Positions 27,049-48,773 of a stretch of 64,000 nucleotides of DNA are shown piece by piece. This DNA comes from Cellulophaga sp. RHA19 (GTDB lineage: Bacteria > Bacteroidota > Bacteroidia > Flavobacteriales > Flavobacteriaceae). The notes below the pieces were generated by a model. It ran no database searches, was not told the origin of the DNA, and was given only the letters and a program-made list of their open reading frames with translations. The DNA lies in contig NZ_PHUL01000001.1 of assembly GCF_002813425.1 (NCBI RefSeq), forward strand, positions 3,649,001 to 3,713,000, in the 5' to 3' direction. Numbering within the stretch: position 1 is the first letter of the stretch; each line of letters opens with the position of its first letter. The position numbers and the translations under genes are program-made.

Positions 27049-27112
27049 TTTTTGGGTTTGAGTTCTATTTTAAGAATGCTTTTTTAAATATAAGATTATT
27101 ACAGAAACTAGT

Positions 27113-27153: not shown

Positions 27154-27180
27154 AAAAAACTAAATAATTACACTAAAAAA

Positions 27181-28665: not shown

Positions 28666-28669
28666 GTTC

Positions 28670-31777: not shown

Positions 31778-32047
31778 ACTTAAATGAGTTTTAATTGTTA
31801 AGTTAGTTATTAGTTAATTTACCTCTAAATTTTACCTATTAATGTTAAATGCAGAAATTAATTCGACTAACAACTTTGTGGAAAAGCTAAGCGACAATAT
31901 ACAGAGGTGTTAAAAATTTGAATACTTTATTATCAATTCCGTAATTAATACACAAACAAATACACATTTTAGAATTGCAGATGCAAAAACCTACAAAGTC
32001 AAGGTAATAAGAGACTTACAACAGAGAAAACTTGTTAAATTAAAATT

Positions 32048-34261
32048 TTACTCCAACCCTATTTCTAAAACAGAGCCATTTAACAAGTCTTTATGAGAAA
32101 CAAAATACCCTTTAAGTTCTTTATTATTTAAATGAATAGATTTAATTTTTCCATTAACATTTCCTGTTCGCTTAATAATTAACTTTTCTTTTTTATAATA
32201 AGTTGTATCTAAATGAATAGTCATAGAAGTAAATCTTGGTGTAGAAATAGTATAAACTGGTGAAGCCGGACTAACAGGGTAAATTCCCATCATTGCATAT
32301 ACTAACCACGCAGACATTGTGCCTGTATCATCATTACCTGGCAAACCTGCAGGCGTATTTGTAAAATATGTTTTTATTAACGCCTGTACTCTTTTTTGAG
32401 TTTTCCATTCGTCTCCTTTACTGTAGTTATATAAAAAAGGATAAGCAATATCTGGCTCATTAGCCATATCAAACTGATTATTATCAAAAATATAATCTAG
32501 GTGAGAAACAAATTGTTTTTTTCCTCCCATTAGCTTCATTAAACCTTTAATATCGTGTGGTACCATAAAAGCGTACTGCCACGCATTGCCCTCTATATAA
32601 CCCACATTTTTTTCAAAATTTGCCCCTTTGTAAGGATCAAAAGGTGTGTACCAGCTACCATCACTATTTTTAGGTCTTAGTAGCTTTAAATCACTATCAA
32701 ATAATTTTTTATAAGATAAAGATTGATTATAAAACTTTTTATAGTCTGCCTTTTTACCCAATTCTTTTGCTAGTTGAGAAATAGCAAAATCTGCAATATT
32801 ATATTCTTCTGTAGTAGAAACAGGCCCCTCTGCACTACCGCCTACACTTAAATATCCATTCTCCCAATACTCTTTATTTCCTGGCCTTAACGGATTATTT
32901 ACAATCTTGGTTGCTCCTTTTAACATTGCTGCGTAAGCTAAATCAACATTAAAATCTGTAATACCACGTAAATATGTATCTGCTATAACTACTGGTGCTG
33001 GGTCACCAACCATTGTAAAAGTTTCTGTAGAGTTTAACTCCCATTTAGGCAGCCAACCATTTTCTTTGTACATAGACAACATACTTTTTACCATATTAGA
33101 TTGTTGTGCTGGGTACAAAGTACTCATTAATGGGTGGTAGTTTCTGTACGTATCCCAAAGCGAAAAAACGGTGTATCTAGTACCTTTAGTGTTTCCTATT
33201 TTACCAGTTGCAATCTCAGGATAATCGCCATTAAAATCATTTAACGTATTTGGGTGTATTTGTGTGTGGTACAATGCTGTATAAAATATTGTTTTATCAT
33301 TTGTAGAACCACCTTCTACCTCTACAGTAGACAAAGTCTTGTTCCAAGCAGCTTTTGTAGTAGCATAAACATCATCAAAATTTTTATTAGCTGTTTCCTT
33401 TTCCAAATTTTCCCTAGCATTATCTATACTTACGTAAGACACACCAATTTTAACCTCAACAGTAGTTTTCTTTTTAAAATTGTAACGCATATAAGCACCA
33501 ATACTATCACCTACAACTTCTCTTGTAAACCCTTTCATTAGTCTAGTTTTGCCATTGTAGCCCATCCATTGTGCTTCTACCTCATTGTATTTATGTGGTT
33601 TTTTCCAAGCTCCAAACTCATCTGCTGGACTAGAAAATTTAGCAACAAAATATACTGGGTAAGCCTGTTCTGGACTATTATAACAGAAAGAGCCAACTGT
33701 GCGCATTCCTTCAATTTCTGTATTAGATACCACTTTTACCATTGCGCCTTGCTCATTAGTTAAGCCAAGTCCTAAATTTAAAAGTATGTTAGATTTTCCT
33801 GCTGGAAATGTATACCTAGACACTCCTACTCTTGTTGTTGCAGTAAGTTCTGTTTTTATATTGTATTTAGATAAGTTAACTGAGTAATAGCCTGCTTTAG
33901 AAACCTCATCTATGTAAGTGGTTCCGTATTGCATATGGTTTGTTTTTAAGTCTCCTGAAGTTGGCATAGTTAAAATAACTCCCAAATCTGGACAACCAAC
34001 TCCGCTTAAGTTTACGTGTGTAAATCCTGTTAAAAAATTGTATTGTTTAACATATGGGTTAGATAACCAACCTGCATCTTTTTGCACTGCTACGTTAAAT
34101 GGAGATACACTAGCCATACCTCTTGGCGCAATTGCACCTGGGTTTGTTGCTCCAAAATTAGAGGTTCCTATAAACGGGTTTACATAGTCTACAGGTTGTT
34201 GACCAAAGGCAAAACTTACTACAACTAAAACAATACTTAAAATTTTAAATTTTATACTCAT
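32048..34261 (-). CDS. GH92 alpha-mannosidase (non-alpha-1,2-type active site)
   Basis: A 737-residue secreted GH92 exo-mannosidase (signal peptide ending AFGQ; mature start DYVNPFIGTSNFG). Glu557 of EGNAWQY fits the catalytic acid and GNDDTG (643-645) the base region, with Asp645 in the position of the base and Asn643 replacing the Asp found in the other GH92. Where the other enzyme has QIHE this one has a FDMANEPD stretch, so it lacks the alpha-1,2 pair and probably cuts another linkage, such as alpha-1,3 or alpha-1,6. It starts 4 bases after the GH20 gene, in the same operon. Confidence 0.93.
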   Translation of the reverse strand: MSIKFKILSIVLVVVSFAFGQQPVDYVNPFIGTSNFGATNPGAIAPRGMASVSPFNVAVQKDAGWLSNPYVKQYNFLTGFTHVNLSGVGCPDLGVILTMPTSGDLKTNHMQYGTTYIDEVSKAGYYSVNLSKYNIKTELTATTRVGVSRYTFPAGKSNILLNLGLGLTNEQGAMVKVVSNTEIEGMRTVGSFCYNSPEQAYPVYFVAKFSSPADEFGAWKKPHKYNEVEAQWMGYNGKTRLMKGFTREVVGDSIGAYMRYNFKKKTTVEVKIGVSYVSIDNARENLEKETANKNFDDVYATTKAAWNKTLSTVEVEGGSTNDKTIFYTALYHTQIHPNTLNDFNGDYPEIATGKIGNTKGTRYTVFSLWDTYRNYHPLMSTLYPAQQSNMVKSMLSMYKENGWLPKWELNSTETFTMVGDPAPVVIADTYLRGITDFNVDLAYAAMLKGATKIVNNPLRPGNKEYWENGYLSVGGSAEGPVSTTEEYNIADFAISQLAKELGKKADYKKFYNQSLSYKKLFDSDLKLLRPKNSDGSWYTPFDPYKGANFEKNVGYIEGNAWQYAFMVPHDIKGLMKLMGGKKQFVSHLDYIFDNNQFDMANEPDIAYPFLYNYSKGDEWKTQKRVQALIKTYFTNTPAGLPGNDDTGTMSAWLVYAMMGIYPVSPASPVYTISTPRFTSMTIHLDTTYYKKEKLIIKRTGNVNGKIKSIHLNNKELKGYFVSHKDLLNGSVLEIGLE

Positions 34262-34265
34262 AATT

Positions 34266-36590
34266 CTATTCTACTATAATTTCATCTACAAACAACCAAG
34301 CACCACCACCATTAGGCGGACTTTTTAAATTAGTTGCTACCACCTTTATGTACCTAGCTTTAGTTGGTTTAAAATTGATTTTAAAATCTTTTAATTCTGA
34401 TGCATTGCTTACTTTAAATGCTCTAGTAACCTCTGCAACTTTGGTAAACTTTTTTCTGTGTTCTGATGTAAAGACTTCTATTTTTACAGGAAAATAAATT
34501 CCTGAACTTTGATTTTCTAGTGTACCAACCGTTACTGCAGAGAACTCTGTTTCTACATCAAAATCTATTACCACATCCATATTATTACCCAACCAACCTT
34601 GCCACTGTCCGTCGTGAAAATTTTTAGATCCTCTTAATACATTTACCAAACCAAGCTGTTGTTCTCCTTGGTAATTTTTATGATACTTAGTGTTATAAAC
34701 TATATATTTACCAACCGCATTATGGTAATTAAACTCTTTAGTTAAGGTTTGTCCTAATTGCTTACCATTTTTAAACATTGCAGCCTTTAGTGTAGCTGTT
34801 TTATTTAGTTGAATTGGTTTTTGATATTGTAAAGACGACTGTGAAAGCAAAGAACCGTCTATAGAGTATCTAATATCTGCATCTGGAAATTCATTTTTTA
34901 ATAAGATAGATAATTCGCCTTTTTCTATGTCAACTTTAGCATCTGTAGTTATCTGATAAGCACTTTTGGCATAGTTAACACCCATAACATCATAACGCTT
35001 AAACAGCTCTTTTACCCTACCTGAAAAGTTATTCCAATTTTTATTTTCTACTGGTGTCCAAAGAGCCTCAGACATAGCAGCAAGCCTAGGAAAAATCATA
35101 TACTCAGACTGTTGCTCTGTTGGTATATGCTCTGCCCACAAATTTGCTTGTCCGCCTAACACGTGTTTCTCCTGCTCTGGAGTCATTTTATCTACCACTG
35201 GGTTAAACTCATACACTTTACTAAGCGGAGTATAACCACCAAATGCTAAAGGTTCTTGATCTTGATTTCCTTGGTAATGATCAAAATAACAATGTGTACC
35301 AGGTGTCATAACAACATTATGCCCTTCTGCAGATGCTTCTAAGCCACCTTTTACACCACGCCAACTCATAACAGTTGCCCCTGGAGCCAAACCGCCCTCT
35401 AAAATTTCATCCCAACCAATTAAAACTCTATTTTTAGAACTTATAAAACGCTCTATTCTTTTAATAAAATAGCTCTGCAATTGGTCTACATTTACTAAGC
35501 CTTCTGTTTGTAATCTGGTGGTGCAATGTGTACAAGTTTTCCAATTGGTTTTTGTAGCTTCATCTCCGCCAACATGTATGTATTTAAATGGAAACAACTC
35601 CATAACCTCTGTTAATACATCTTGTAAAAAGATAAATGTTTCTTCCTTACCTGCACAGTAAATATCTGTAATTGGCCATACTCCACCAGACGGAACCATA
35701 ATTTGCTCATCTAAACAAGAAAACTCTGGATACGCAGCTATTGCACTACTAACGTGTGCTGGCATCTCTATTTCTGGCACTACAGTTATACCCCTTTCTG
35801 CTGCATAAGCTACTACTTCTTTTATTTGCTCTTGTGTATAAAAACCGCCATAAGTAGCTTTTGTTCCTAAAGGTGCATTTGGTCTAGCGTTCCAACCTTT
35901 ATCTTCTTGGTCTACTCTATAACCACCAACAGACGTTAGTTTTGGATATTTTTTAATTTCTATTCGCCATCCTTGATCATCTACTAAATGCCAATGAAAA
36001 GTATTCATTTTTAGCATTGCCATACGGTCTAACGTTTTTTTAATATAATCTACCTCAAAAAAATGTCTAGACACATCTAACATTAGTCCTCGCCATTTAA
36101 AACGAGGAGTATCTTTAATTTCTATTACTGGAACTATCCACTCTTTTTGCACAAACGTTGTACTTTCTATACTTGCAGGAAGCAACTGCTTTATAGTTTC
36201 TAATCCATATACAAAACCAGAATACGTTTTTGCAGATACTGTTATATGATTAGAATTTATTGATAAATTATAACCTTCATGAGGTAAAGAATCTATTGTT
36301 TTAAACTGTAAAAAATTAGTAGAAGGTGCATTATTTACTACATCTAATTTTACACCAGAGACCTGTTTAAAATTTTGAGAAAAAGACGTTAATAATTTTT
36401 GCTCATTTTTTGTGCTTGCAACCAATTTTGTGTTTGCATTAAAACTAAAACTACCTTTGTATAACTCTGTAAATACAGGCTTAGGAATAATATTAATTTC
36501 TTCTTCTGTAAAGTTTTTTTCTTTTTTAGTTGTACAACTAAACGTTAGTAACAAAAGAAAAATGGTTATGTGGCAGTTAAGTTTTTTCAA
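34266..36590 (-). CDS. GH20 beta-N-acetylhexosaminidase lipoprotein
   Basis: A 774-residue lipoprotein (lipobox LTFSC, Cys19) that removes terminal beta-linked GlcNAc or GalNAc by substrate-assisted catalysis. Order: GH20b domain (about 30-155), TIM barrel (about 160-510) with FHWHLVDDQGWR and the catalytic pair Asp343-Glu344 in HVGGDEATK, a chitobiase-type C-terminal beta-sandwich (about 550-625) and an F5/8C-like discoidin domain (about 635-774) ending WLFVDEIIVE. The last two modules recur in proteins at 45907 and 46713. It lies between the GHL and GH92 genes in one operon and supplies hexosaminidase activity for glycans such as N-glycan antennae. Confidence 0.95.
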   Translation of the reverse strand: MKKLNCHITIFLLLLTFSCTTKKEKNFTEEEINIIPKPVFTELYKGSFSFNANTKLVASTKNEQKLLTSFSQNFKQVSGVKLDVVNNAPSTNFLQFKTIDSLPHEGYNLSINSNHITVSAKTYSGFVYGLETIKQLLPASIESTTFVQKEWIVPVIEIKDTPRFKWRGLMLDVSRHFFEVDYIKKTLDRMAMLKMNTFHWHLVDDQGWRIEIKKYPKLTSVGGYRVDQEDKGWNARPNAPLGTKATYGGFYTQEQIKEVVAYAAERGITVVPEIEMPAHVSSAIAAYPEFSCLDEQIMVPSGGVWPITDIYCAGKEETFIFLQDVLTEVMELFPFKYIHVGGDEATKTNWKTCTHCTTRLQTEGLVNVDQLQSYFIKRIERFISSKNRVLIGWDEILEGGLAPGATVMSWRGVKGGLEASAEGHNVVMTPGTHCYFDHYQGNQDQEPLAFGGYTPLSKVYEFNPVVDKMTPEQEKHVLGGQANLWAEHIPTEQQSEYMIFPRLAAMSEALWTPVENKNWNNFSGRVKELFKRYDVMGVNYAKSAYQITTDAKVDIEKGELSILLKNEFPDADIRYSIDGSLLSQSSLQYQKPIQLNKTATLKAAMFKNGKQLGQTLTKEFNYHNAVGKYIVYNTKYHKNYQGEQQLGLVNVLRGSKNFHDGQWQGWLGNNMDVVIDFDVETEFSAVTVGTLENQSSGIYFPVKIEVFTSEHRKKFTKVAEVTRAFKVSNASELKDFKINFKPTKARYIKVVATNLKSPPNGGGAWLFVDEIIVE

Positions 36591-36602
36591 AATGAAATAC
36601 GT

Positions 36603-37727
36603 TTAATTAAATTTCTTACTAAGTTTTTTTATTACCGCATATTGCTCATCTGTAAGTGCATTACCATCAAAAATAGAGACTCCTTTTGCTCCATTATCTT
36701 TTGCTAATAGAATTGCTTTTTCTAAATCTGAAACAGACATATTTGGTACATAAATACCAGTATGCAGTTCTGTATTAGAATTTTTAAGGTCTTTTACACC
36801 TTGTCCTGTTGCAAACCCAATCCAGTCTATTTCTTCATTATAAAAGTTATGATAAATCATTGGCAGTACTTTATCTACATTCCATTTGTCCCAGCGTTGG
36901 CGCACCATATGATCTGCCATTTCTGGATAAGGAAATACTGCTGCAGTTAATATTTTGTTGTTATTATGCGCAATGATATAAGCTTCATCTACAATAGCTT
37001 TTACTTTATTTAACCTAAATTGTTTCCACTCCATATCTATAGCTGGGTTTTTAGACTCTTTAGGGTTTTTATGGTGTTCCTTTTTAAACTCTGCTATACA
37101 TACATCACAGTAACAAAAATCAAACTCAGGTAACTCTACCTCTTGTTTTAAATTGTATTTTGGTAGTAAACCAATTGGTAAAAAAATATCTGAGTAACGA
37201 ATATAATCTAAATGTACACTTGCTACATCTTCAACCTTTGCCAAACCTTCTACTAAACTTAATATATGAGCCTTAGACTCTTTTCTTGTTGGGCATAGCC
37301 ATTTGTAATACCCTACATATGGTGGCTCATCAAAACAAGATTTACCATCTCTACTAACCGCGTACCACTCTGGGTGCTGTTCTGCAATAGCATCTCCAGG
37401 CCTGTTTACAGTAAACATCCAAGCGTGTACATTTAACCCTTCCTTTTTTGCAAAAGGAACTATTCTTTTTAGCAACTCTGGATCTGTACCTGTATTAATT
37501 AGCACATCTGTAATTCCGTTTGCGCTATATTTAGCAAATTCTTCTTGGTAAGCAGTATCCTCTTTTTCATTACTAGCAGATGTCCAAGTCCAAAATGTAA
37601 AACTATTTGTTATAGCATCTTCCTTTTCTACTACATTTTTGTCTTGTTTTTTATTCTCACAAGAAAATAAGACAAAGCCCAACAATAAAAAACTCATTAC
37701 CCTTAAAAATATCTTATTCTGCTTCAT
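36603..37727 (-). CDS. Putative glycoside hydrolase-like (GHL) TIM-barrel lipoprotein
   Basis: A 374-residue lipoprotein (lipobox LFSC, Cys23) resembling the hypothetical glycosyl hydrolase families GHL6/GHL10. The HLDYIRYSD motif has the acidic and aromatic residues usual at a barrel strand end, and a Cys-rich CYCDVC motif plus Cys of SCFDEPP and WLCPT suggest a metal or disulfide site. An NxGxD start of the barrel (INTGTDPELL) and a DEAYIIAHNNN stretch are consistent. The substrate is unproven. Start chosen at 37727, where the lipoprotein signal begins; it overlaps the upstream gene by 14 bases. Its place between the CBM9-like and GH20 genes suggests action on the same glycan. Confidence 0.8.
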   Translation of the reverse strand: MKQNKIFLRVMSFLLLGFVLFSCENKKQDKNVVEKEDAITNSFTFWTWTSASNEKEDTAYQEEFAKYSANGITDVLINTGTDPELLKRIVPFAKKEGLNVHAWMFTVNRPGDAIAEQHPEWYAVSRDGKSCFDEPPYVGYYKWLCPTRKESKAHILSLVEGLAKVEDVASVHLDYIRYSDIFLPIGLLPKYNLKQEVELPEFDFCYCDVCIAEFKKEHHKNPKESKNPAIDMEWKQFRLNKVKAIVDEAYIIAHNNNKILTAAVFPYPEMADHMVRQRWDKWNVDKVLPMIYHNFYNEEIDWIGFATGQGVKDLKNSNTELHTGIYVPNMSVSDLEKAILLAKDNGAKGVSIFDGNALTDEQYAVIKKLSKKFN

Positions 37728-38748
37728 TACTACTAAATTTACCATCTTCTTTAATTACTAATATTTTGTTTGTAAACGGACTTTTTAGCCAGATGTTAAA
37801 TCCGGTTTTATGCTTCTCTAATTGTGGACTCACTAAAGCTCCTAAAATAGATTTAGATTGTATCTCTTTTTCATCATTATTTTCTACATAATTTAAAAAT
37901 ACTTTATACAAATACCATTTTATCTGTTCATCTTTTGGAATGTTCCAATCTATATTTTCTTCAGTTTTATCAGAAAAATAAACATAACCCCAAGTATTAG
38001 GTTTATGCATATTAACTACGCCTTGTGGAGACCAAACCCAATTATACTCTGGTAAATCTTTGCCGTTAGCATCTTTCTTTTTAACATATTTACCGTCTAT
38101 TAAAGTATGTTGCCATTGTACCCTAGAAAAATTTATACGCCAAAAATCATTTACTGGTATTTCTGCTATTTTAGAAGGTTCAAAAAGTGATTTCCAAGGA
38201 ATAGCAATTTCTGTAGACCAACTTTTATCTGTATCACCAGCGTTGTTTAAAGTTCCGTTAATATGCACAGCAGTTTTTAACCCGTTTATATCCCAATTAT
38301 TAATGGCTGCACCACCTTGACTATATGTTTTTGTTAACAACAAATCCCACACAGTATTTAGTGCATTTATCTCTAGTTCCATATAATTATGAGTAGTACC
38401 AGGCGGATCTATAAAAATTTCAAAATCGTTGTTATAAAAAATTACAGCATCTCTTTTTGTAATATCTCCCCATACATGAGGCTCCTCTAGCAAGGCAAAG
38501 AAATACAAATAAGTATCATCCCAAAGCATTTTTACCCTAGTTATATAAGTCGCTTTTTTATCGCCTTCAATATCTATAAACTCTTTTGTCCATTTAGCAG
38601 TTTCCCAAGACTTTTCATTAGCTACGCCATCTATTATTAAACTATCTACTGCCTTGTTTGCTATATATTTATTAGGTGTATTTTGAGCTATTAGTGAAGC
38701 ACAACCTAGGTAAATTAAAAAAAGAAAAGCAGCAATTATTCTTTTCAT
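37714..38748 (-). CDS. CBM9-like carbohydrate-binding protein
   Basis: A 344-residue exported protein (signal peptide ending SLIAQ). It is a CBM9-type beta-sandwich: IIDGVANEKSWETAKW, WDDTYLYFFALLEEP, FYNNDFEIFIDPPG and a YMELEINALNTVWD strand, then AIPWKSL and NFSRVQW. This subfamily is found beside glycoside hydrolases in Bacteroidota and probably binds sugar; no catalytic residues are evident. It is the first gene of the four-gene enzyme operon and divergent from a LytS/LytTR pair. Start at 38748; an upstream in-frame ATG at 38772 would precede the signal peptide with a charged extension. Confidence 0.85.
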   Translation of the reverse strand: MKRIIAAFLFLIYLGCASLIAQNTPNKYIANKAVDSLIIDGVANEKSWETAKWTKEFIDIEGDKKATYITRVKMLWDDTYLYFFALLEEPHVWGDITKRDAVIFYNNDFEIFIDPPGTTHNYMELEINALNTVWDLLLTKTYSQGGAAINNWDINGLKTAVHINGTLNNAGDTDKSWSTEIAIPWKSLFEPSKIAEIPVNDFWRINFSRVQWQHTLIDGKYVKKKDANGKDLPEYNWVWSPQGVVNMHKPNTWGYVYFSDKTEENIDWNIPKDEQIKWYLYKVFLNYVENNDEKEIQSKSILGALVSPQLEKHKTGFNIWLKSPFTNKILVIKEDGKFSSNEAE

Positions 38749-38813
38749 TTTTATAGAAGGTTCAATATCCATATTCTTTATTATTAGTAACTTTTTTTTA
38801 ACATTAATATAAT

Positions 38814-38978
38814 TTAGTTGCTAATTAAATTATTTTTTATACTTTTCAGACGTTCAATTCTGCGTGTTTAGCAAAACGCTATATCTAGTTTTTAAGCTAC
38901 ATAGCAACACTTTATAAATATTCCTTTTTTTATTTGTAATGGAAATAATTTTAGACCAATAACGATAGCCAAATGCTA
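38814..38978. promoter_or_regulatory. TAGC/GCTA palindromes in the divergent promoter region
   Basis: The 273-base gap between the enzyme operon and the LytS gene has no exact TAnnTTTG box but holds four short inverted repeats: TTAG-TTG-CTAA (38814-38824), TAGC-N5-GCTA (38869-38881), GCTA-CA-TAGC (38896-38905) and TAGC-N5-GCTA (38966-38978). Two share the same arms and 5-base spacer, and both spacers contain AAA. They could be binding sites for a regulator of one or both divergent operons. Confidence 0.35.
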
Positions 38979-39021: not shown

Positions 39022-40107
39022 ATGAATATAAACACAGATGTAGATTCTTTTTTAAACAAGAATTCTTCTAAAAGCTTTGAAATAAATTACAAACACCATA
39101 TAATTTTTTGGGTTATATATTTTATTTTTAACAGCTTAAGGTATAGCAACATTCACCAAGATTTTATGCTCTCTTTGCGTATGAATCTTATAGGTTTTCC
39201 TATACATATGGCAATTGCATACTTTAACGTGTACTACTTAATGCCTAAGTTTGTTTTTAAGAAAAAATACATTAGTTACACTTTTTCTGTTATTGCCACA
39301 TTATTTATTATGTTATTGGTTAAGTACTCCTTAACCTATTATTTTATTGGACCAAATGTATGGCCAGAGGGACCTGAAGAACTAAAAGGCTTAACACTTA
39401 ATTATGCCACTACAATGATGGTTGGTGAACTGTACGTTTCCTCTTTTGTTGCAGCCATAAAACTCACAATAGATTGGCTAAAAGAACACAGCAAACTACA
39501 TGAGTTAGAAAAGAGACAGCTAAGCACAGAATTACGTTTTTTACGCTCACAGGTTTCTCCACATTTCTTTTTTAACACGCTTAATAATGTTTACTCTTTA
39601 ACTCTAGAAAAGTCTGATAAAGCTCCAGAAGTTATATTAAAATTATCTGAATTAATGCGATACTTGTTATATGCTACCAAAAAAAACAAACAAGATTTAA
39701 AGAGCGAGCTAGACTGTATACAAAACTATTTAGACCTAGAACGTTTACGTTTTGATGAGTCTTTAAATATAAACATTAGTATTTCTGGTGATCTAGAAGG
39801 TAAACGTATTTCACCTATGTTGTTAATTCCGGTAATAGAAAATTGTTTTAAACACGGAGCTAGTAAAAACATAGGAGATATGATAATAGATATAGATGTA
39901 AAGGTTAGTGAAGATTTGCTTCATTTTAAAGTATCTAACACCATACCCGTACAAAGCGCAGATAGCTTAATACCCATTAGAAGTGGTGGTATTGGACTAA
40001 GCAATTTAAAAAAACGCTTAGAGCTAGGGTATAAAAAAGAAGATTATCACCTATCTATTTTTGAAAAAGACAATATGTTTAATGTAATTCTAAAACTTAA
40101 AGTATGA
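39022..40107 (+). CDS. LytS/YpdA-type sensor histidine kinase
   Basis: A 361-residue membrane kinase of the His_kinase (PF06580) class. Four membrane helices occupy about residues 25-160 (IIFWVIYFIF, FPIHMAIAYFNVYY, YTFSVIATLFIMLL, then VGELYVSSFVAAI), followed by a short coiled coil and the diagnostic SQVSPHFFFNTLN with phospho-acceptor His181. The HATPase has PVIENCFKHG and GGIGLSNLKKRL. It has no extracytoplasmic sensor domain, so it probably senses within the membrane. Its stop overlaps the start of the LytTR gene by 4 bases. It lies between the glycan locus and the cytochrome/DUF1501 set and is the only sensor close to either. Confidence 0.93.
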   Translation: MNINTDVDSFLNKNSSKSFEINYKHHIIFWVIYFIFNSLRYSNIHQDFMLSLRMNLIGFPIHMAIAYFNVYYLMPKFVFKKKYISYTFSVIATLFIMLLVKYSLTYYFIGPNVWPEGPEELKGLTLNYATTMMVGELYVSSFVAAIKLTIDWLKEHSKLHELEKRQLSTELRFLRSQVSPHFFFNTLNNVYSLTLEKSDKAPEVILKLSELMRYLLYATKKNKQDLKSELDCIQNYLDLERLRFDESLNINISISGDLEGKRISPMLLIPVIENCFKHGASKNIGDMIIDIDVKVSEDLLHFKVSNTIPVQSADSLIPIRSGGIGLSNLKKRLELGYKKEDYHLSIFEKDNMFNVILKLKV

Positions 40108-40823
40108 TTAAATTAAGAACCATAATTGTAGATGATGAACCGTTGGCTATAAATGTTTTAAAAAATTATGTTTCACAAATACAGGAATTAGAGTTACTAG
40201 AAACATTCTCTAATGCTGTTACAGCAACTACTTTTGTTCAAAACAATGAAATTGATATCATTTTTTTAGATATTAATATGCCTATATTAGATGGCTTAGA
40301 TTTTCTCAAAAGCTTACAATCTATGCCAATGGTAGTTATGACAACTGCACATGAAGAGTATGCACTTACTAGTTATGAACTACAAGCTATAGATTATTTG
40401 GTTAAACCAATACCATTTCCTAGGTTTTTACAAGCAGTACAGCGCATTATAAAATTAAAACAAGGCAGTACTACAAAAGCCATAACTACCAATACTTCTA
40501 CAGATAACGCTAGTATTTTTATTAAGATAGATAAAAAGAAGTTGCAAAAAATAGTGTTAGATGACATTATGGTAATTGAAAGTTTAAAGGACTATATCCG
40601 TATAAAAACAAAATCAGATAAATACATTATACACAGAACTTTAAGTAGTTTTACAGATGAATTACCTAGTGATAAATTTATAAGAATACACAGGTCTTAT
40701 ACCATATCTATCTCTAAAGTAGATACCATAGAAGGTAATAGTTTAGAAATTGGTGGTATACGGTACACAATTGGGCGTAGTTACATTAATGACGTAAAAG
40801 AAACACTTTTGGGACGCGCATAA
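40104..40823 (+). CDS. LytTR family response regulator
   Basis: A 239-residue regulator: receiver domain with DDE at 10-12, phospho-acceptor Asp56 (FLDINMPILDG), TTAHEEYA and DYLVKPIPF, then a LytTR DNA-binding domain (about 140-237; VIESLKDYIRIKT, FIRIHRSYTISI, GRSY at the end). It is translationally coupled to the LytS kinase through a 4-base ATGA overlap. The 143-base gap to the PSCyt1/DUF1553 gene on the same strand shows no terminator, so readthrough is possible. It probably controls the divergent glycan enzyme operon, the downstream set, or both. Confidence 0.93.
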   Translation: MIKLRTIIVDDEPLAINVLKNYVSQIQELELLETFSNAVTATTFVQNNEIDIIFLDINMPILDGLDFLKSLQSMPMVVMTTAHEEYALTSYELQAIDYLVKPIPFPRFLQAVQRIIKLKQGSTTKAITTNTSTDNASIFIKIDKKKLQKIVLDDIMVIESLKDYIRIKTKSDKYIIHRTLSSFTDELPSDKFIRIHRSYTISISKVDTIEGNSLEIGGIRYTIGRSYINDVKETLLGRA

Positions 40824-40966
40824 ATTTCAATTTTTAAGAAAAAGCTGTTAGGTTTTCATTTTGTATTTATTAAGCTATTGTTACAAGTTACTGGTCGATT
40901 TTTATTGCTAACAATTTAAAGAATAACAATATTTAAGAACAATAAACTAGCTGATTCTTAAAAATT

Positions 40967-43330
40967 ATGATATTATCTAATTGGTTTCTATATCAAAAAA
41001 ATAATGTAGCAAAAATAGCTTTTGCTGTATTAATTACTATTGGTGCTACTAGTTGCAAAACAGAAAACAAATATTCTGAGGTTGCCATAGCAGAAAATGG
41101 TACAGCAGCAATTCCTGATAAAATAGACTTTACATTTCACGTAAAACCTATTATATCTGATAGGTGTTTTATTTGCCACGGACCAGATAAAAATGCTGTT
41201 GAAGGTAATTTTTCTATGGTTACACCAGAGGAGGCTTATAAAGCTTTAGGAGAAAACTTAGACCATTATGCTATTGTGCCAGGAGACACAGAAAAAAGCG
41301 GAATGCTAGACCGTATTTACTCCAAAGATCCGGGGAGTATAATGCCGCCTCCAGAGTCTAACTTAATACTTACCGAGTACGAAAAAGAAATATTAAAAAA
41401 ATGGGTAGAGCAAGGTGCAGAATATAAAGACCATTGGGCTTTTACACCTCCAGAAAATCAAAATGTACCTAAAACTAAAGATACTTGGGGAAATAACGAA
41501 ATAGATAACTTTATTTATCAAAAATTAGAAGAAAACAACTTACAACCTTCTGAGCAGGCTCCAAAAGAAAAATTATTACGTAGAGTTTATTTTGATTTAA
41601 CTGGCTTGCCACCATCTACAAAAGACATAAACAATTTTTTACAAGATTCTTCTGCTAATGCATATGAAAAAGTAGTAGATAAACTTTTAGAATCACAAGA
41701 CTATGCAGAAAATATGGCTGCAGAATGGATGGATATTGCTCGTTATGCAGACACACACGGTTACCAAGATGATTTTGAACGTATTATGTGGCCTTGGAGA
41801 GATTGGGTAATTAACGCTTTTAACAAAAATATACCTTACAATAAATTTGTTACAGACCAATTAGCAGGAGATTTAATACCGGATGCATCTTTAGAACAAG
41901 TTTTAGCTACAGGTTTTAACCGTAACCATAAAATTACTTATGAAGGCGGAGTAATACCAGAAGAATACAGAGTAGAATACGTAGAGGACCGTATTACTAC
42001 TTTTGGTACTGCTTTTTTAGGATTAACATTAGAGTGTGCGCGTTGTCATGACCATAAATATGATCCTATTAGTCAAAAAGCACATTTCTCATTCTTTAGC
42101 TTTTTTAATAATATAGATGAAGACGGATTAGTAAACGGCGGTTCTGGCGTAATTCCTAAACCATATATTACAATTACAGAGAAAGAAAAAAATGAAGTTT
42201 TAGATTTTGTTCAATTACAAAAATCAGACATAAAAGAAGTTCCTGTAATGGTTATGCAAGAGATGAAAACTCCTAGACAAGCATATATTCTTAACAGAGG
42301 ATTATATGATCAGCACGGAGAAAAAGTATATCCAGATACTCCAAAAACTATTTTAACTTACCCAGAAGAGTTTGAAAAAAACAGACTTGGACTGGCAAAA
42401 TGGTTGTTTCATAAAGACAATCCTTTAACTGCCAGAGTTGCTGTTAACCGTTTTTGGCAACGTATGTTTGGTACCGGTATTGTAGCTAGTTCTTATGATT
42501 TTGGCAACCAAGGAGCATTACCTACACATCCAGAATTGCTAGACTATTTGGCATTACAATTTAGAGACAGTGATTGGGATACCAAAAAAATGCTAAAGCT
42601 AATGGCTATGTCAAAAACTTATCAGCAAAAAACAGTTATTAGTAAAGAAGCTTTAGAAAAAGACCCAGAAAACAAATGGTTAGCACGCGGACCAAGAATA
42701 CGTTTGTCTGCAGAAATGATAAGAGACCAAGCCCTTTTTGTAAGCGGACTATTAAATAAAGAAGTTGGTGGACCAAGTGTAAAACCATACCAGCCAGAAG
42801 GAATTTGGGAAGAAACTACAGGAGGTGGTGGCGGTAGTACATCTTCTTACGTTTTAAGCGAAGGAAAAGATTTGTACCGTAAAAGTTTGTATACATTTTG
42901 GAAACGTACCGTACCTCCACCAAGTATGATAACTTTTGATGCTGCTTCTAGAGATTTATGTTCTGTAAAAAGACAAGAAACCAACACACCATTGCAAGCA
43001 TTGGTTTTATTAAATGACCCGCAACTAATAGAGGCTGCACGTGTATTAGCTGCTAATGCAATTAAAAAAGAGACAAGTATAGAAAAACAAATTTCATACA
43101 TTTTTCAATCTTCTACATCTAGACTACCAGATGAAACAGAGGTTACAGAACTTACCAACCACTATAATGATATGTTAAACAGAGTAAAAAGTAACGAAAT
43201 TAATACAGACGAATATTTAGCCATTGGCTCTTATAAAGTTGATGCTTCTATTACTGTAGATAATTTAGCTGCTTTGTCTTTAACAGCGCATACCATTTTA
43301 AATTTAGATGAAACTATAACCAAAGGATAG
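40967..43330 (+). CDS. PSCyt1/DUF1549/DUF1553 cytochrome lipoprotein
   Basis: A 787-residue lipoprotein (lipobox GATSC, Cys30) of the planctomycete-type cytochrome family. A cytochrome c-like domain carries CFICH (Cys67, Cys70, His71) with a possible axial Met in SIMPPPES; DUF1549 follows (about 175-375) with ARYADTHGYQDD and a second CARCH motif (357-361, then DHKYDPI); DUF1553 (about 465-720) has NPLTARVAVNRFWQ and the CSVKRQETNTPLQALVLLND end. The reaction is unknown. The gene is followed after 2 bases by DUF1501, its usual partner. It could be an oxidoreductase or electron-transfer enzyme at the cell envelope. Confidence 0.9.
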   Translation: MILSNWFLYQKNNVAKIAFAVLITIGATSCKTENKYSEVAIAENGTAAIPDKIDFTFHVKPIISDRCFICHGPDKNAVEGNFSMVTPEEAYKALGENLDHYAIVPGDTEKSGMLDRIYSKDPGSIMPPPESNLILTEYEKEILKKWVEQGAEYKDHWAFTPPENQNVPKTKDTWGNNEIDNFIYQKLEENNLQPSEQAPKEKLLRRVYFDLTGLPPSTKDINNFLQDSSANAYEKVVDKLLESQDYAENMAAEWMDIARYADTHGYQDDFERIMWPWRDWVINAFNKNIPYNKFVTDQLAGDLIPDASLEQVLATGFNRNHKITYEGGVIPEEYRVEYVEDRITTFGTAFLGLTLECARCHDHKYDPISQKAHFSFFSFFNNIDEDGLVNGGSGVIPKPYITITEKEKNEVLDFVQLQKSDIKEVPVMVMQEMKTPRQAYILNRGLYDQHGEKVYPDTPKTILTYPEEFEKNRLGLAKWLFHKDNPLTARVAVNRFWQRMFGTGIVASSYDFGNQGALPTHPELLDYLALQFRDSDWDTKKMLKLMAMSKTYQQKTVISKEALEKDPENKWLARGPRIRLSAEMIRDQALFVSGLLNKEVGGPSVKPYQPEGIWEETTGGGGGSTSSYVLSEGKDLYRKSLYTFWKRTVPPPSMITFDAASRDLCSVKRQETNTPLQALVLLNDPQLIEAARVLAANAIKKETSIEKQISYIFQSSTSRLPDETEVTELTNHYNDMLNRVKSNEINTDEYLAIGSYKVDASITVDNLAALSLTAHTILNLDETITKG

Positions 43331-43332
43331 TT

Positions 43333-44826
43333 ATGAGCGAGAAAAAAATACTAGAAGAAAGGTCTTTAATCTTAAACCGTAGAAACTTTTTAGGCAAAGC
43401 AGCTTTAGGAGTTGGTGGTACCGCTTTAGCATCATTAATGGGTTGTAGCTTTTTTAATAAAAGTGAAGCTGGCATACTAACACCTGCAAATACAATAAGC
43501 GGGTCTAAAGGCGCTTTAAACAGTTTGCATCATCCTGCAAAAATAAAAAGAGTTATTTATTTGTTTCAAAGTGGTGGTCCGTCTCAATTAGAGTTGTTTG
43601 ATTATAAACCACTTTTAAATGTACGCAGAGGTGAAGATTTACCAGAATCTATTAGAAACGGGCAACGTTTAACTGGTATGACATCTGGGCAAGACAAGTT
43701 TCCTTTAGTTGGCTCACAATTTGATTTTAAACAGTATGGTAAAAACGGAACTTGGATTAGTGACTTATTACCCTACACCGCTAAAATGGTAGATGATTTG
43801 TGTTTTATAAAATCTATGCATACTGAAGCAATTAATCATGATCCAGCAGTTACGTTTTTTCAAACAGGATCACAACAACCAGGTAGACCTAGTATTGGTT
43901 CTTGGTTAAGTTATGGTATTGGTAGTGAAAATGACAACCTACCTGCTTTTACCGTATTATTATCTAGAGGTAGCGGAAGGCCTCAAGGTCAGCCTTTATA
44001 TACCAGATTATGGGGCAACGGATTTTTACATTCCTTACACCAAGGAGTACAATTTAGGGCTGCCAAAGATCCTGTATTGTATTTAAATGACCCTAAAGGA
44101 ACTACTAAAGACACCAAACGTGCTATTTTAGATAAGTTAGCTGCCTTAAACGACAAGCAGTATGAGGAGTTTGGAGATCCTGAAATACAAAGTAGAATTT
44201 CACAATATGAAATGGCATACAGAATGCAAACCTCTGTACCAGATGTTATGAATATTGATGATGAGCCAGATTATATTTATAAAATGTATGGCTCAGATGC
44301 AAAAATACCTGGCACTTATGCTGCAAACTGTTTGCTAGCAAGAAAACTAGCCGAAAAAGATGTGCGTTTTATACAGTTGTACCATATGGGTTGGGACCAA
44401 CATGATAATTTACCCGGTGCTATAGAAAAGCAAGCCAAAGATGTAGACCAAGCATCTGCTGCCCTTGTAGCAGATTTAAAACAGCGTGGTTTATTAGAAG
44501 ATACGCTTATTGTTTGGGGAGGTGAGTTTGGAAGAACCAACTACTCACAAGGAATATTAACAGCAGATAATTACGGAAGAGATCACCACCCAAGAAGTTT
44601 TACAATGTGGATGGCCGGTGGCGGTATTAAACCAGGTATTAGTTACGGTGAAACCGATGATTTTGGATATAACATTGTTAAAAACCCTGTGCATGTACAC
44701 GATTTTCAGGCTACAATGATGCACTTACTAGGTATAGATCATAAAAAATTAACCTATAAATATCAAGGTCGTAGATTTAGATTAACAGATGTAGAGGGCC
44801 ACGTTATTAAAGATATTTTGTCTTAA
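43333..44826 (+). CDS. Tat-exported DUF1501 protein
   Basis: A 497-residue protein of the DUF1501 family, which shares the alkaline-phosphatase/sulfatase-like fold but has no proven activity. The N-terminus has a twin-arginine motif (NRRNFLGKA, Arg16-Arg17), a hydrophobic stretch and Cys38 in SLMGC, so it is probably a Tat-exported lipoprotein. Family motifs are QSGGPSQLELFDYKP, NHDPAVTFFQTGS, GWDQHDN, WGGEFGRT and DHHPRSFTMWMAGGG; the Asp and His clusters suit a metal site. Tat export implies folding or cofactor loading in the cytoplasm. It lies between its usual DUF1553 partner and an NHL propeller gene. Confidence 0.9.
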   Translation: MSEKKILEERSLILNRRNFLGKAALGVGGTALASLMGCSFFNKSEAGILTPANTISGSKGALNSLHHPAKIKRVIYLFQSGGPSQLELFDYKPLLNVRRGEDLPESIRNGQRLTGMTSGQDKFPLVGSQFDFKQYGKNGTWISDLLPYTAKMVDDLCFIKSMHTEAINHDPAVTFFQTGSQQPGRPSIGSWLSYGIGSENDNLPAFTVLLSRGSGRPQGQPLYTRLWGNGFLHSLHQGVQFRAAKDPVLYLNDPKGTTKDTKRAILDKLAALNDKQYEEFGDPEIQSRISQYEMAYRMQTSVPDVMNIDDEPDYIYKMYGSDAKIPGTYAANCLLARKLAEKDVRFIQLYHMGWDQHDNLPGAIEKQAKDVDQASAALVADLKQRGLLEDTLIVWGGEFGRTNYSQGILTADNYGRDHHPRSFTMWMAGGGIKPGISYGETDDFGYNIVKNPVHVHDFQATMMHLLGIDHKKLTYKYQGRRFRLTDVEGHVIKDILS

Positions 44827-44859
44827 ACCATAATACCAACCAACTACTTTAACCAACTT

Positions 44860-45897
44860 ATGAACCGACGAACTTTTATACAAACCTCTAGCTTAGCTAG
44901 TGCAGGACTTTTTTTAAGTACACCTGCCTTACACGCAATGCAACCCTATAAAGATGCCATAATTGGTCATGGTGATTTTAAATATAAGATAGACTTAAAT
45001 TGGGGTGCCCTAAACTCTAATTACTACCCTGTAGAAAACTGCCATGAAATGGTGCAAGATTCTAAAGGAAGGATAATTTTACTTACAGACCATACCAAAA
45101 ACAATGTAATAGTTTATGATAAATCTGGAAATTTAATTGAAGTTTGGGGCACAGAGTTTCCTGGCGCACACGGACTAACATTAAATGTAGAAAACGGAGA
45201 AGACTTTTTGTACATAGCAGATAATAACCGTCATGAAGTAATAAAAACAACTATTGACGGTAAAGTTGTTCAAATTTTTAAATTTCCTAAAGGCTCTGGT
45301 AGTTATAAAAATATAACAGAATACATTCCTACAGAAACTGCTATTGCTGCTAATGGCGATGTTTATATTACAGATGGCTACGGAGCACAACATATTTTAC
45401 ATTATAATGAAAAAGGTGAGTTATTACACATTTTTGGAGGTAAAGGAAAAGAAGATCATTTATTTGGTAATGCACACGGTATTACAATAGACACACGCAA
45501 CAATACAGCTCCTACACTACTAATTACTGACCGTATGGAAAATAAGTTTAAGCGTTTTAGTATGCAGGGCGATTATATAAATACAATACACTTACCTGGT
45601 GCTTTTGTTTGCAGACCTGTAATACATAAAAATAATATTTACACAGCTACTATTTGGTCTGGAGATGGTGCTATGGATACAGGTTTTGTATCAATCTTAA
45701 ATAGTGAAAACAAATTAGTTTCTGCTCCTGGTGGCACTGAACCAAAGTATAATAATAATGGTGCTTTGCAGCCAATGCAACAAGCACTAAAAATATTTAA
45801 AAACCCACATGATGTTTGCATAGATGATGATGACAACCTGTATGTTGCACAATGGAACTCTGGTAAAACATACCCAATAAAATTAACCAGAGTCTAA
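44860..45897 (+). CDS. Tat-exported NHL-repeat beta-propeller protein
   Basis: A 345-residue exported protein with a Tat-type start (NRRTFIQTSS, Arg3-Arg4) and signal cleavage near LHAMQ. The body is a six-bladed propeller with NHL-like repeats: VIVYDKSGNLIEVWG, HGLTLN, FLYIADNNRHEV, NGDVYITDGYG, GNAHGITID and PHDVCIDDDDNLYVAQW. NHL proteins bind ligands or act as lyases or lactonases; no catalytic set can be assigned. It starts 33 bases after DUF1501, and its Tat export suggests a folded partner of that protein. Confidence 0.85.
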   Translation: MNRRTFIQTSSLASAGLFLSTPALHAMQPYKDAIIGHGDFKYKIDLNWGALNSNYYPVENCHEMVQDSKGRIILLTDHTKNNVIVYDKSGNLIEVWGTEFPGAHGLTLNVENGEDFLYIADNNRHEVIKTTIDGKVVQIFKFPKGSGSYKNITEYIPTETAIAANGDVYITDGYGAQHILHYNEKGELLHIFGGKGKEDHLFGNAHGITIDTRNNTAPTLLITDRMENKFKRFSMQGDYINTIHLPGAFVCRPVIHKNNIYTATIWSGDGAMDTGFVSILNSENKLVSAPGGTEPKYNNNGALQPMQQALKIFKNPHDVCIDDDDNLYVAQWNSGKTYPIKLTRV

Positions 45898-45906
45898 TTA
45901 ATTTCT

Positions 45907-46713
45907 ATGAAAAAAATAACATACATATTAATTTTTATAGTTGGATTTTCTTGTACTAAGAACAAGAAACAAAATTATGCCCAAACAAAAGAAATACAGC
46001 TAGTTCCCCCAAACTTTACCGTAGATTCTATATTTTTTAAAAACAATGCTACTATTAACTTCTCTAGTACTTTAGCAAATACTACACTAAAATATTCAGT
46101 TGGTAATAGTAGCATTACTCACGACTCTAAAATATTAGAATCTCCTTTAAAAATAGAAAAATCATCTACATTGGCTGTTAAAGCTTTTCATACAGATTAT
46201 AAAGAGAGTGAAACTGTTAAGCTTCAGGTAAAAAAAATAAAACATAACATATCAAATGCATCAATACGTATTTTTCCTGAGCCTAGTGACACTTACTCTG
46301 CCAATGGTGCTGCTAGTCTTACAGATTTAAAAAGTGGTTACCCTCAATTCAAAAAAAACAATGCTTGGTTAGGTTTTAATACAAAAGAAATTAGCATTAA
46401 TGTAGTTTTAGACAAACCTTTATTACTCTCTAAAATAACATTACACATATTAACTGCACAAGGAGACTGGATTTTTGCTCCAGAGCAAATTAGTATTAAA
46501 AACAACAATAAAGTTATAGGAGAGCTAGTAAATAAAAAAGCTAGCAAAAAAAGCTTAAGTGGTGCAAACGTAAACTTTACAGAAGTGCCCATTACTCCTA
46601 AAACTTACAATGAGTTTACCATTGTAGTTAAAAGCTTAAATGGCATACCAAATTGGCATTCTGGTGCCAATAGTACCCCTTGGTTTTTTATTGACGAAAT
46701 TATAGTAGAATAA
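45907..46713 (+). CDS. Lipoprotein with chitobiase-type and discoidin-like modules
   Basis: A 268-residue lipoprotein (lipobox VGFSC, near Cys16). Residues about 40-115 form a chitobiase/Fn3-associated beta-sandwich (FKNNATINFSS, LKYSVGNSS, AVKAFHTDY); residues about 120-268 form an F5/8C-like domain with YSANGAASLTDL, NNAWLGFNTKE and the end WFFIDEIIVE. These two modules match the C-terminal tail of the GH20 enzyme and of the protein encoded next. No catalytic domain is present, so a binding role is likely. It overlaps the next gene by one base, showing tight coupling. Confidence 0.82.
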   Translation: MKKITYILIFIVGFSCTKNKKQNYAQTKEIQLVPPNFTVDSIFFKNNATINFSSTLANTTLKYSVGNSSITHDSKILESPLKIEKSSTLAVKAFHTDYKESETVKLQVKKIKHNISNASIRIFPEPSDTYSANGAASLTDLKSGYPQFKKNNAWLGFNTKEISINVVLDKPLLLSKITLHILTAQGDWIFAPEQISIKNNNKVIGELVNKKASKKSLSGANVNFTEVPITPKTYNEFTIVVKSLNGIPNWHSGANSTPWFFIDEIIVE

Positions 46714-48773
46714 TGCAGATACACACACTATACATACATATAGGAAATTTACACCCTTTATTTGTTCACCTTCCAATAGGCATACTAAGTTTTGCTTTTA
46801 TATTAGAAATTTATTTAAAAATTAAAAAATCTAAAGAAACAGACATTGCTAAACTGGCATTGGGTTTAGCTGCTATTACTGCTTTATTTTCTTTAGGTAC
46901 AGGATGGCTTTTAGGTGACAATGGTGGCTATGATGAGCAAGCACTATCTAGACATAAATGGATGGCTGTTGCACTTACAGTATGCAGTGTGTTGTTATTT
47001 ATTTTACGCTCTTTAAATCAGAAATGGAGCTCAAAAATTTTCTTTCCATTATTTATAATTACACTTGTATTACTTGGTATTACAGGTCATTTAGGAGGAA
47101 ATATGACTCACGGAGATGATTTTCTTTTTCAAGATAACTCTACCAAAGAAGTAGCTATTACAGATATTAATAAAGCTAAAGTATACAAAGATGTTGTACA
47201 GCCTATTTTAGATACCAAATGCGTTAGCTGTCACAATGCAAACAAAGCAAAAGGAGAACTTATACTTACTAGTAAAGCCTTTATATTGGCTGGTGGTGAA
47301 AATGGCAGTGTTTTAGATTCTATAAACGGAGAACAAGCCTCACTATTAGGAAGAATACATATGCCAGTAGAAGACAAATTGCATATGCCTCCTAAAGGAA
47401 AAGTACAGCTTACAACTGAAGAAGTTAATTTGTTAGAATGGTGGATGAAGAACAATAATTGTTTTGATTGTACTGTAAATGAAACTAACACCAGTGCACA
47501 AACTAAAGCTATTTTAAAAAATTTAGAAAAAGACACTACATCTATTGATATACTTACAGCAAGTTTAGAACCTGCTCCCTTAGAGTGGATAGCTAAAATG
47601 AATGCAAACGGATTTAGCATTCTTCCGCTAGCAGAAAAAAGTCCTTTATTACTTGTAACCCTTGCTAACAGAAAAGGTATTACCAGTAAAGACATTAAAA
47701 AACTAGAAGATTATGCAGATAATATTGTAGAACTTAATTTAGGTTTTACAGATTTTAATGATGATATGGCAATGCTATTGCCCAACTTTAAAAATATTAT
47801 AAAATTACAGCTACAGAAAACAAAAATAACATCTAAAGCTTTAGAGGAGATTGAAAAGCTAGAGTTATTAGAGTCCTTAAATTTATATGGTACAGCCGTT
47901 ACTAGTGATATTTTTAAGCATTTAAAAAAATTAGATAAATTACAAAAAGTATACTTATACCAAACTAAAATACAAAACAGTGAGCTAGCTAATTTACAAA
48001 AAGACAAACCACAGCTTGTTACAAAGCATTTATCTGATACAATTTTTAATGATGCCGAACTAAACAATCCGTTTATTGTAAATGCCACAGATTTTTTTAA
48101 TACTGAAATTGATATAGAGCTTACGCACGTTTTTAAAACTGCAAACATATTTTACACTTTAGACGGTACTGAGCCAGACACAACATCTACTAAGTATACT
48201 GCTCCTATTAAACTTACAGACTCCAAAACCATAAAGTTTTATGCACACAAAGATGACTGGAAACAAAGCAACGTGGTAACAGCCAATATTAAAAAAAGTG
48301 GTTTAAAATTAGATTCTATTTGGTTAGATAAAAAACCACATGAAAATTATAAAGGTGATGGTGCAAACTCTTTAAAAGACTTAAAAAGAGGCTCTATAAA
48401 TTTCCAAGACGGTTTGTGGTTAGCATACCAAGGAGAAAACTTAAATGCTACTATTGCTTTTAATGAACCTAAAGAGATAAGTACAGTTTCTGTTGGTTCT
48501 TTAACTAAACCTACTAGTTGGATATTTAACCCTATTGGTTACAAGGTATGGACAAGTACTAATAACAAAGATTATACACTTATAAAAACAATAAAATTAC
48601 CTGTTCCCCAAAAATATGTAGATGATGCCATTTCTTTTTACGATATAACTTTTGATAAAACAGTGGCTAAATACGTAAAAGTTGAAGTGGTCAATATAAC
48701 AAAAAACCCAGCTTGGCATCCAAATCCTGGAGGCAAAAGCTGGGTTTTTGTTGATGAAATTCTTGTAAACTAA
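46713..48773 (+). CDS. Membrane DUF2231-like/cytochrome c/LRR fusion with binding tail
   Basis: A 686-residue fusion protein. Four membrane helices of a DUF2231-type domain come first (about 15-128; HPLFVHLPIG and HLGGNMTHG hold possible haem-ligand His residues), then a cytochrome-type CVSCH (Cys170, Cys173, His174; MPPKGK may supply an axial Met), a leucine-rich stretch (about 330-435), a chitobiase-type sandwich (about 465-530; FYTLDGTEPDT) and an F5/8C-like end (WVFVDEILVN). The membrane haem/cytochrome part could pass electrons between the periplasm and the quinone pool. It ends the five-gene set and overlaps the convergent clpS gene by 4 bases. Confidence 0.85.
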   Translation: MQIHTLYIHIGNLHPLFVHLPIGILSFAFILEIYLKIKKSKETDIAKLALGLAAITALFSLGTGWLLGDNGGYDEQALSRHKWMAVALTVCSVLLFILRSLNQKWSSKIFFPLFIITLVLLGITGHLGGNMTHGDDFLFQDNSTKEVAITDINKAKVYKDVVQPILDTKCVSCHNANKAKGELILTSKAFILAGGENGSVLDSINGEQASLLGRIHMPVEDKLHMPPKGKVQLTTEEVNLLEWWMKNNNCFDCTVNETNTSAQTKAILKNLEKDTTSIDILTASLEPAPLEWIAKMNANGFSILPLAEKSPLLLVTLANRKGITSKDIKKLEDYADNIVELNLGFTDFNDDMAMLLPNFKNIIKLQLQKTKITSKALEEIEKLELLESLNLYGTAVTSDIFKHLKKLDKLQKVYLYQTKIQNSELANLQKDKPQLVTKHLSDTIFNDAELNNPFIVNATDFFNTEIDIELTHVFKTANIFYTLDGTEPDTTSTKYTAPIKLTDSKTIKFYAHKDDWKQSNVVTANIKKSGLKLDSIWLDKKPHENYKGDGANSLKDLKRGSINFQDGLWLAYQGENLNATIAFNEPKEISTVSVGSLTKPTSWIFNPIGYKVWTSTNNKDYTLIKTIKLPVPQKYVDDAISFYDITFDKTVAKYVKVEVVNITKNPAWHPNPGGKSWVFVDEILVN

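Follow-up and report, generated by a model that had tools for sequence, protein, structure and literature searches.

A conserved set of DUF1549/DUF1553, DUF1501 and membrane cytochrome genes beside an N-glycan locus in Cellulophaga, and its possible role in periplasmic electron transfer

We analyzed a 64,000-nucleotide stretch of DNA ("the window") from the flavobacterium Cellulophaga sp. RHA19, at positions 3,649,001-3,713,000 of a single-contig genome of 3.93 Mb. Our subject is a set of five open reading frames (ORFs), all on the + strand, at 40967-43330, 43333-44826, 44860-45897, 45907-46713 and 46713-48773. A preliminary description of the locus, made from the sequence alone, had put the distances between these genes at 2, 33 and 9 bases, with one overlap of 1 base, and the ORF list gives the same spacing. 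According to Pfam, the first gene encodes PSCyt1, DUF1549 and DUF1553 domains; the second, DUF1501; the third, an NHL or 6-bladed propeller; the fourth, no known family; and the fifth, DUF2231, PSCyt1 and CHB_HEX_C/Fn3_assoc. We call the PSCyt1-DUF1549-DUF1553 protein PSD and the DUF2231-PSCyt1-CHB_HEX_C protein FUS. The original observation of a linked gene set stands, and it is stronger than first noted: PSD, DUF1501 and FUS are a conserved and mobile core that includes a membrane partner. This conservation was absent from the preliminary description, as were a second copy in the same genome and a kinase/LytTR pair upstream.

PSD (40967..43330, + strand) has PSCyt1 at amino acids 67-130, DUF1549 at 178-384 and DUF1553 at 472-732, all over the Pfam cut-offs. 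It does contain the two CxxCH motifs that had been described: CFICH at 67, in PSCyt1, and CARCH at 357, in DUF1549. Both motifs, as well as Met126, are kept in all 42 aligned sequences (window included). A profile search against PDB gave matches of the PSCyt1 part to FoxE (1.2e-5) and to hydrazine synthase alpha (1.6e-4). Cys30 follows a hydrophobic stretch, so judged by eye PSD is a possible lipoprotein. The window's PSD shares 97% identity with proteins that carry the label Cellulophaga lytica.

To describe the linkage of these genes, we used 60 genomes (RHA19 and 59 relatives). The alignments and tallies include orthologues, among them five Cellulophaga copies, so the counts are of non-independent events. 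DUF1549 was found at 50 sites in 19 of the 60 genomes, and at 50/50 of them a strong DUF1501 match lay less than 4 kb away. Conversely, all 49 strong DUF1501 sites have DUF1549. (This tally uses the 49 rows with E below 1e-60; another 47 weaker rows, with E of 1.4e-32 and up, were left out.) FUS lies within 4 kb of DUF1501 at 42 of 45 sites, where a site is a row whose match covers 150 or more residues in the N-terminal part of FUS; shorter rows and those that match only the C-terminal part were excluded. At 38 of the 42 sites the order is PSD-DUF1501-FUS on one strand, and at the other 4, FUS and DUF1549 are in one frame. One locus has a tandem pair of PSD genes 5' of a single DUF1501 and a single FUS (L072:9905-14631; L and G labels are ours, for loci and genomes).

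The same linkage appears in a wider draw of 148 genomes from the phylum, RHA19 included. With cut-offs of E <= 1e-8 for FUS and E <= 0.001 for DUF1549, the two are found in the identical 12 genomes, from 11 of the 83 genera. Outside RHA19, 23 of 25 FUS matches are on the same strand as a DUF1549 and within 9 kb of it. The preliminary description had staked its proposal on a neighborhood conserved beyond close relatives, and the core is kept far outside them.

FUS and DUF1549 share a single open frame at seven sites, four among the relatives and three in the wider draw (at one of the latter, the match is to FUS residues 112-251 only). In the fused frame at L066, Pfam recognizes all four domains. 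Across 29 loci, the distances of the three core proteins co-vary (r = 0.93, 0.71 and 0.65).

Around this core, other parts vary. The loci that we read in detail were chosen (20 + 20 regions, four named loci and five plasmid stretches) and are a subset of the sites. We compared 32 of these loci in which PSD and FUS are separate. PSD measures at least 848 amino acids in 19 of them, and FUS is short in 19/19 of these; the remaining 13 have a PSD of at most 826 amino acids, with a long FUS in eight. Similarly, in the phylum draw, all six long FUS pair with PSD frames below 845, and 11 of 14 short FUS pair with longer ones. A long PSD together with a long FUS occurs in 0/32 loci and in 0/20 phylum-draw pairs, as judged mainly by length (P = 0.00012 and 0.0022, Fisher tests that ignore kinship). 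Where we ran Pfam on the insertion of the longer PSD, which was for a subset, it is Laminin_G_3 in six loci (L038, L078, L054, L075, L049 and L118) and a sub-threshold CBM_6 in L047; no named Pfam family was found for it in L046, L053, L079 or L083.

The third position of the set ("slot 3") is exchangeable. In the window it holds the NHL propeller with a twin-arginine (Tat-type) signal (44860..45897, + strand, Pfam). Across the 32 loci, it holds an NHL propeller in 16, a Mala_s_1-like propeller in 2 (L046 and L053), a xylose-isomerase-like TIM barrel in 5 (L047, L055 and L081-L083), and nothing recognized in 9. We considered a keto-sugar idea, whose only basis is TIM-barrel and Gfo/Idh-type genes near some units, and did not adopt it. 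The fourth gene of the window (45907..46713, + strand, no Pfam family) encodes a 268-amino-acid protein that is a stand-alone copy, 24% identical, of the C-terminal module of FUS. It had been called a two-module lipoprotein. By eye, a Cys does follow a hydrophobic stretch, which makes it a possible lipoprotein, but a lipobox pattern matched 0/5 of the proteins in the set.

In the RHA19 genome, DUF1549 has two matches and PSCyt1 four, and all of the PSCyt1 matches sit in two such units. The second unit (L038) consists of a PSD of 1,084 amino acids with a Laminin_G_3 insertion, DUF1501, NHL, and a FUS of 462 amino acids that is without the C-terminal module. On its 3' side are alpha-L-fucosidase and SusC/SusD genes, and sulfatase matches start about 10 kb beyond.

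Beyond their joint spread in the Bacteroidota, the three core genes are found together in at least one further phylum. When 72,556 plasmid records were searched, DUF1501 and PSD matched the identical five, and three of the five match FUS (29-32% identity). In the gammaproteobacterium Catenovulum adriaticum, DUF1553, DUF1501, propeller and cytochrome protein occur together on two plasmids, one of them with GH115, GH98 and GH43 (glycoside hydrolase) genes as neighbors and the other with a fucose permease. A plasmid from Haliscomenobacter (Bacteroidota) has the three core genes in a different order. Two PSD-DUF1501 pairs lie on a planctomycete plasmid, and FUS was not found in that record. Nor was FUS found in the record of a Saccharobesus litoralis plasmid, whose PSD is without PSCyt1, so that only the CARCH of DUF1549 remains. 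Here, the genes 3' of DUF1501 encode a 141-amino-acid protein with CKSCH, a cytochrome c', and a cytochrome b561 recognized by Pfam. We take this operon as a case in which PSCyt1 and FUS were replaced by known kinds of electron carrier.

FUS itself (46713..48773, + strand) combines a DUF2231 four-helix membrane domain, a putative PSCyt1 haem domain, leucine-rich repeats (LRRs), CHB_HEX_C, and an F5/8C-like module. The DUF2231 part (46746..47108, + strand; amino acids 12-132) is over the Pfam cut-off (43.2 bits vs. 26.4), and the PSCyt1 part (47220..47399, + strand; amino acids 170-229) includes C170xxCH174 and the invariant Met225. In the preliminary description, FUS was a DUF2231/cytochrome/LRR fusion. 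Pfam supports the first two parts; the LRRs of the window's protein appear only as weak matches to solved LRR proteins, and Pfam recognizes LRRs in some relatives. His14, His19, His81 and His126, which are inside DUF2231, His133, which is just past its end, the CxxCH and Met225 are identical in 41/41 sequences, Catenovulum and Haliscomenobacter included. (Before those sequences joined the alignment, the same residues were invariant in 38/38.) From a simple scan of hydropathy, four helices are predicted, at about 16-34, 48-66, 83-101 and 109-127. By this predicted topology, the five invariant histidines share one side of the membrane, the side of the haem domain, which is the periplasm. An orphan long FUS lies 3' of a sulfatase and an Asparaginase_2 gene and 5' of a SusC/SusD pair that resembles the window's (L041:4543-9005); in the same genome, PSD and DUF1501 are on a separate contig (L073). 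An orphan FUS in G021 adjoins window-like SusC/SusD and an Asparaginase_2 gene.

From these sequence features, we lean towards the view that the set works in the periplasm as a haem redox unit with a link to the quinone pool. The substrate would be bound by DUF1549/DUF1553, with DUF1501 as the constant partner. Electrons from the substrate would first reach the CARCH haem of DUF1549, next the PSCyt1 haem of PSD, and, across a presumed contact between the two proteins, the PSCyt1 haem of FUS; the His-rich four-helix domain of DUF2231 would hand them to the quinone pool. Through slot 3, which holds a propeller or a TIM barrel, and through its lectin-like modules, one core would be fitted to varied substrates. 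That the membrane protein relays electrons had been proposed in the preliminary description, and the claim is favored by the invariant histidines and CxxCH, by the natural fusion with DUF1549/DUF1553, and by the b561 of Saccharobesus. More broadly, and tentatively, DUF1549/DUF1553 and DUF1501 might be the catalytic core of a class of periplasmic haem oxidoreductases that are linked to the quinone pool via a DUF2231-cytochrome, or via b561 in its absence, and directed to particular glycans by exchangeable lectin-like modules.

Several observations weigh against the redox reading. The b561 case is a single one, from one plasmid record. Cytochrome b561 has paired transmembrane His ligands for two b-haems, and the one-sided histidines of FUS are more easily reconciled with a single b-haem, a metal, or a site for quinone than with a b561 that holds two haems. 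Pfam assigns FUS to DUF2231, a different family from b561, with no match to a b561 family, and when the DUF2231 profile was searched against PDB, the matches were chance-like, with no credible one among solved b-type cytochromes. FUS is not within 4 kb of 7 of the 49 DUF1501/DUF1549 pairs, and in the phylum draw it is missing for 7 of 30 DUF1549 rows. DUF1549 was not found in 7 of 17 genomes from the same genus, and many units have no recognized glycan gene nearby.

The direction of electron flow might also be the reverse, from quinol to FUS to PSD, with O2 or peroxide being used for the oxidative cleavage or modification of a substrate. CCP_MauG di-haem peroxidase genes lie directly 3' of FUS at two loci (L057:11838-13010 and L080:12530-13732) and would fit this oxidizing direction as well. 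Furthermore, no sequence feature fixes the direction, and the named hosts are mostly aerobic marine bacteria. However, those two are the only MauG-type neighbors that we saw, and none of the five proteins matches an oxygenase family in Pfam. We consider reverse flow to be unlikely.

If DUF1501 is an enzyme in its own right, the picture would be different. The protein (43333..44826, + strand) matches its Pfam family with 519.3 bits (cut-off 27). Its N-terminus contains NRRNFLG, and that of the NHL protein contains NRRTFIQ, in keeping with the earlier claim of two Tat-exported proteins. The two arginines of the DUF1501 signal are kept in 41/41 sequences. When aligned by hhalign with a profile built from 18 sulfatases, the C-terminal part of DUF1501 matched with a probability of 90.7 (E = 1.2e-6), and the same region gives weak matches in a PDB profile search (best E = 0.069). 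DUF1501 appears to be a distant member of the alkaline-phosphatase/sulfatase superfamily. It resembles the type I sulfatases of that superfamily in this distant C-terminal similarity. They have a formylglycine motif and Asp-Asn, which are metal ligands; DUF1501 is instead without the motif and reads Glu-Phe at the position aligned with Asp-Asn. Specifically, C/S-x-P/A-x-R is absent from the window's DUF1501 and from 38 of 40 relatives, and as a control, it is present within the first 150 residues of 15 of the 18 sulfatases. Given the missing motif, we rejected DUF1501 as a sulfatase. DUF1501 could still be the true enzyme of the set, a hydrolase of the phosphatase or phosphodiesterase type, with the haem proteins acting to sense or protect and not in substrate turnover. 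The sulfatase profile match and the invariant Asp, His and Glu of DUF1501 would agree with this, but it must contend with the missing motif and the Glu-Phe, and it leaves the constant haem partners unexplained. We think that a hydrolase is quite improbable.

To which substrate is the redox unit directed? For this copy, a link to glycans is likely. A divergent locus for N-glycans or mannan lies at 24745..38772 on the - strand (by Pfam: GH92, SusD, SusC, GH92, GH20, GHL10 and a CBM9-like protein); with a SusC/SusD pair together with GH92 and GH20, it has the gene content of a polysaccharide utilization locus. Between it and PSD, immediately 5' of PSD and on the same strand, are genes for a LytS-type histidine kinase (39022..40107, +) and a LytTR response regulator (40104..40823, +). 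These Pfam-identified proteins are likely regulators, and they are kept as neighbors in L034-L037 and L043. The window has just two exact copies of the sequence GTTRYTGGTC, one in each of the spacers that flank the kinase-regulator pair: GTTACTGGTC in the promoter spacer of PSD (40887..40896, +) and GTTATTGGTC in the divergent spacer that separates the kinase from the glycan operon (38954..38963, -). The 10-mer is in both spacers of L035, L036 and L037; in L034, one spacer has it exactly and the second with one mismatch. In L043, it is in the divergent spacer and near the start of PSD, where it is inside the longest reading of the frame; L039 has a single copy, 66 bases 5' of PSD. Single copies of the 10-mer are also found in L064, L079 and L081. 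The motif's weight comes from its placing and conservation, not from the number of matches: at one mismatch to GTTATTGGTC, the window has nine matches, which is not significant (7 of 100 shuffles reach nine). At one mismatch, a 20-base version has 4 matches in the genome, vs. 3 for the backward control, and its uniqueness is partly circular, as it was derived from its own two sites. This copy and the divergent locus probably share a LytTR-type operator.

Two of the proteins also have modules of the kind found on glycan enzymes. The CHB_HEX_C and F5/8C-like module of FUS (48093..48770, + strand) is related to the C-terminus of the GH20 in the divergent operon (34266-36590; 33% identity), and it also matches the solved beta-hexosaminidase 6q63, a Bacteroides GH20 of N-glycan use. 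Beta-hexosaminidase 6q63 has a C-terminal module like that of FUS and the local GH20, but unlike FUS it is a hydrolase without haem or membrane parts. GH92 frames of 956-996 amino acids in seven genomes (G029, G025, G022, G026, G043, G056 and G058) have a C-terminal match of the CHB_HEX_C/F5/8C type to FUS. Because the motif is in both spacers and because FUS and the 268-amino-acid protein have modules of this type, we tie this copy to the N-glycan locus, and the modules may aim the core at the products of that locus.

The preliminary description's claim of a glycan substrate thus has partial support, from this copy; elsewhere, the unit has sulfatases or transporters as neighbors, or no glycan-like genes at all. 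In selected genomes that have units (fragments were left out), GH92 is within 25 kb of 6 of the 8 separate long-form units (five of the six are Cellulophaga orthologues), of 1 of the 30 separate short-form units (at 22 kb), and of 1 of the 4 fused units. In both Muricauda copies, GH92 adjoins the kinase. Elsewhere, the neighbors of the units include M20, FGE-like, YceI and RidA-like genes, a TRAP transporter, and a symporter of the sodium/dicarboxylate-sulfate type; given these non-glycan neighbors, we rejected the idea that the unit belongs to glycan loci generally. Two genomes of the same genus (G004 and G017) have five GH92 matches each and no DUF1549. Because of these two genomes, and the 7 of 17 in the genus that are without DUF1549, the unit is dispensable for this way of life.

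Such varied neighbors might instead indicate a general redox or stress system of the envelope, whose glycan neighborhood in this copy is accidental. A stress-induced sigma factor has been proposed to regulate RB10051, a DUF1549/DUF1553 protein of Rhodopirellula baltica (PMC2754498). This explanation does not account for the CHB_HEX_C/F5/8C-type modules on FUS and the 268-amino-acid protein, the motif common to both spacers, or the presence of GH92 near the long-form units and the Muricauda copies, even allowing that the former come largely from one Cellulophaga lineage. We consider a general system to be somewhat unlikely.

Genes of this kind are familiar from planctomycetes, whose PSCyt-PSD genes were reportedly treated by Studholme et al. 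in 2004. At Saccharobesus, as described above, a prokaryotic b561 and small c-type cytochromes hold the position of FUS. According to He et al. 2017 (PMC5615132), PSCyt-PSD genes adjoin uncharacterized families, with lectin-type modules and sulfatases nearby; the functions of these gene arrangements are called wholly obscure, and a role in carbohydrate metabolism is suggested. The planctomycete and verrucomicrobial genes thus resemble our set in their architectures, in the lectin-type or F5/8C additions, and in the neighboring uncharacterized families and sulfatases. In contrast, the section of that paper which we consulted does not mention a membrane DUF2231-cytochrome partner, which is here a regular third core gene. 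PMC2754498 gives 41 copies of each of two of the domains in R. baltica and relays a redox suggestion, and the passages of PMC11495043 that we consulted only use the domain name. Our search of the literature by domain name, which had partial coverage, found no paper with both DUF1501 and DUF1553 and no description of the DUF2231-cytochrome partner.

With its membrane partner, fusions, b561 substitute and probable regulator, the compact flavobacterial operon makes the function of DUF1501 and DUF1549/DUF1553 testable. If the electron path that we favor is correct, then glycan breakdown by marine bacteria would be linked directly to respiration in a way that is invisible in the annotation of the locus. 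And if the broader proposal of a glycan-aimed oxidoreductase class holds, these genes would be a respiratory branch of polysaccharide utilization loci.

Other genes near the units or in the window were also seen. Downstream of one unit is a gene for a 1,036-amino-acid protein with 4Fe-4S dicluster domains (L046:14232-17342), perhaps a subunit of alternative complex III. In the window, an ORF of 424 amino acids with no Pfam family lies between a two-component system and the N-glycan locus (23438-24712), and an ordinary RND efflux set, with HlyD-type, AcrB-type, outer membrane efflux and TetR-type genes, is at 12299-18614.

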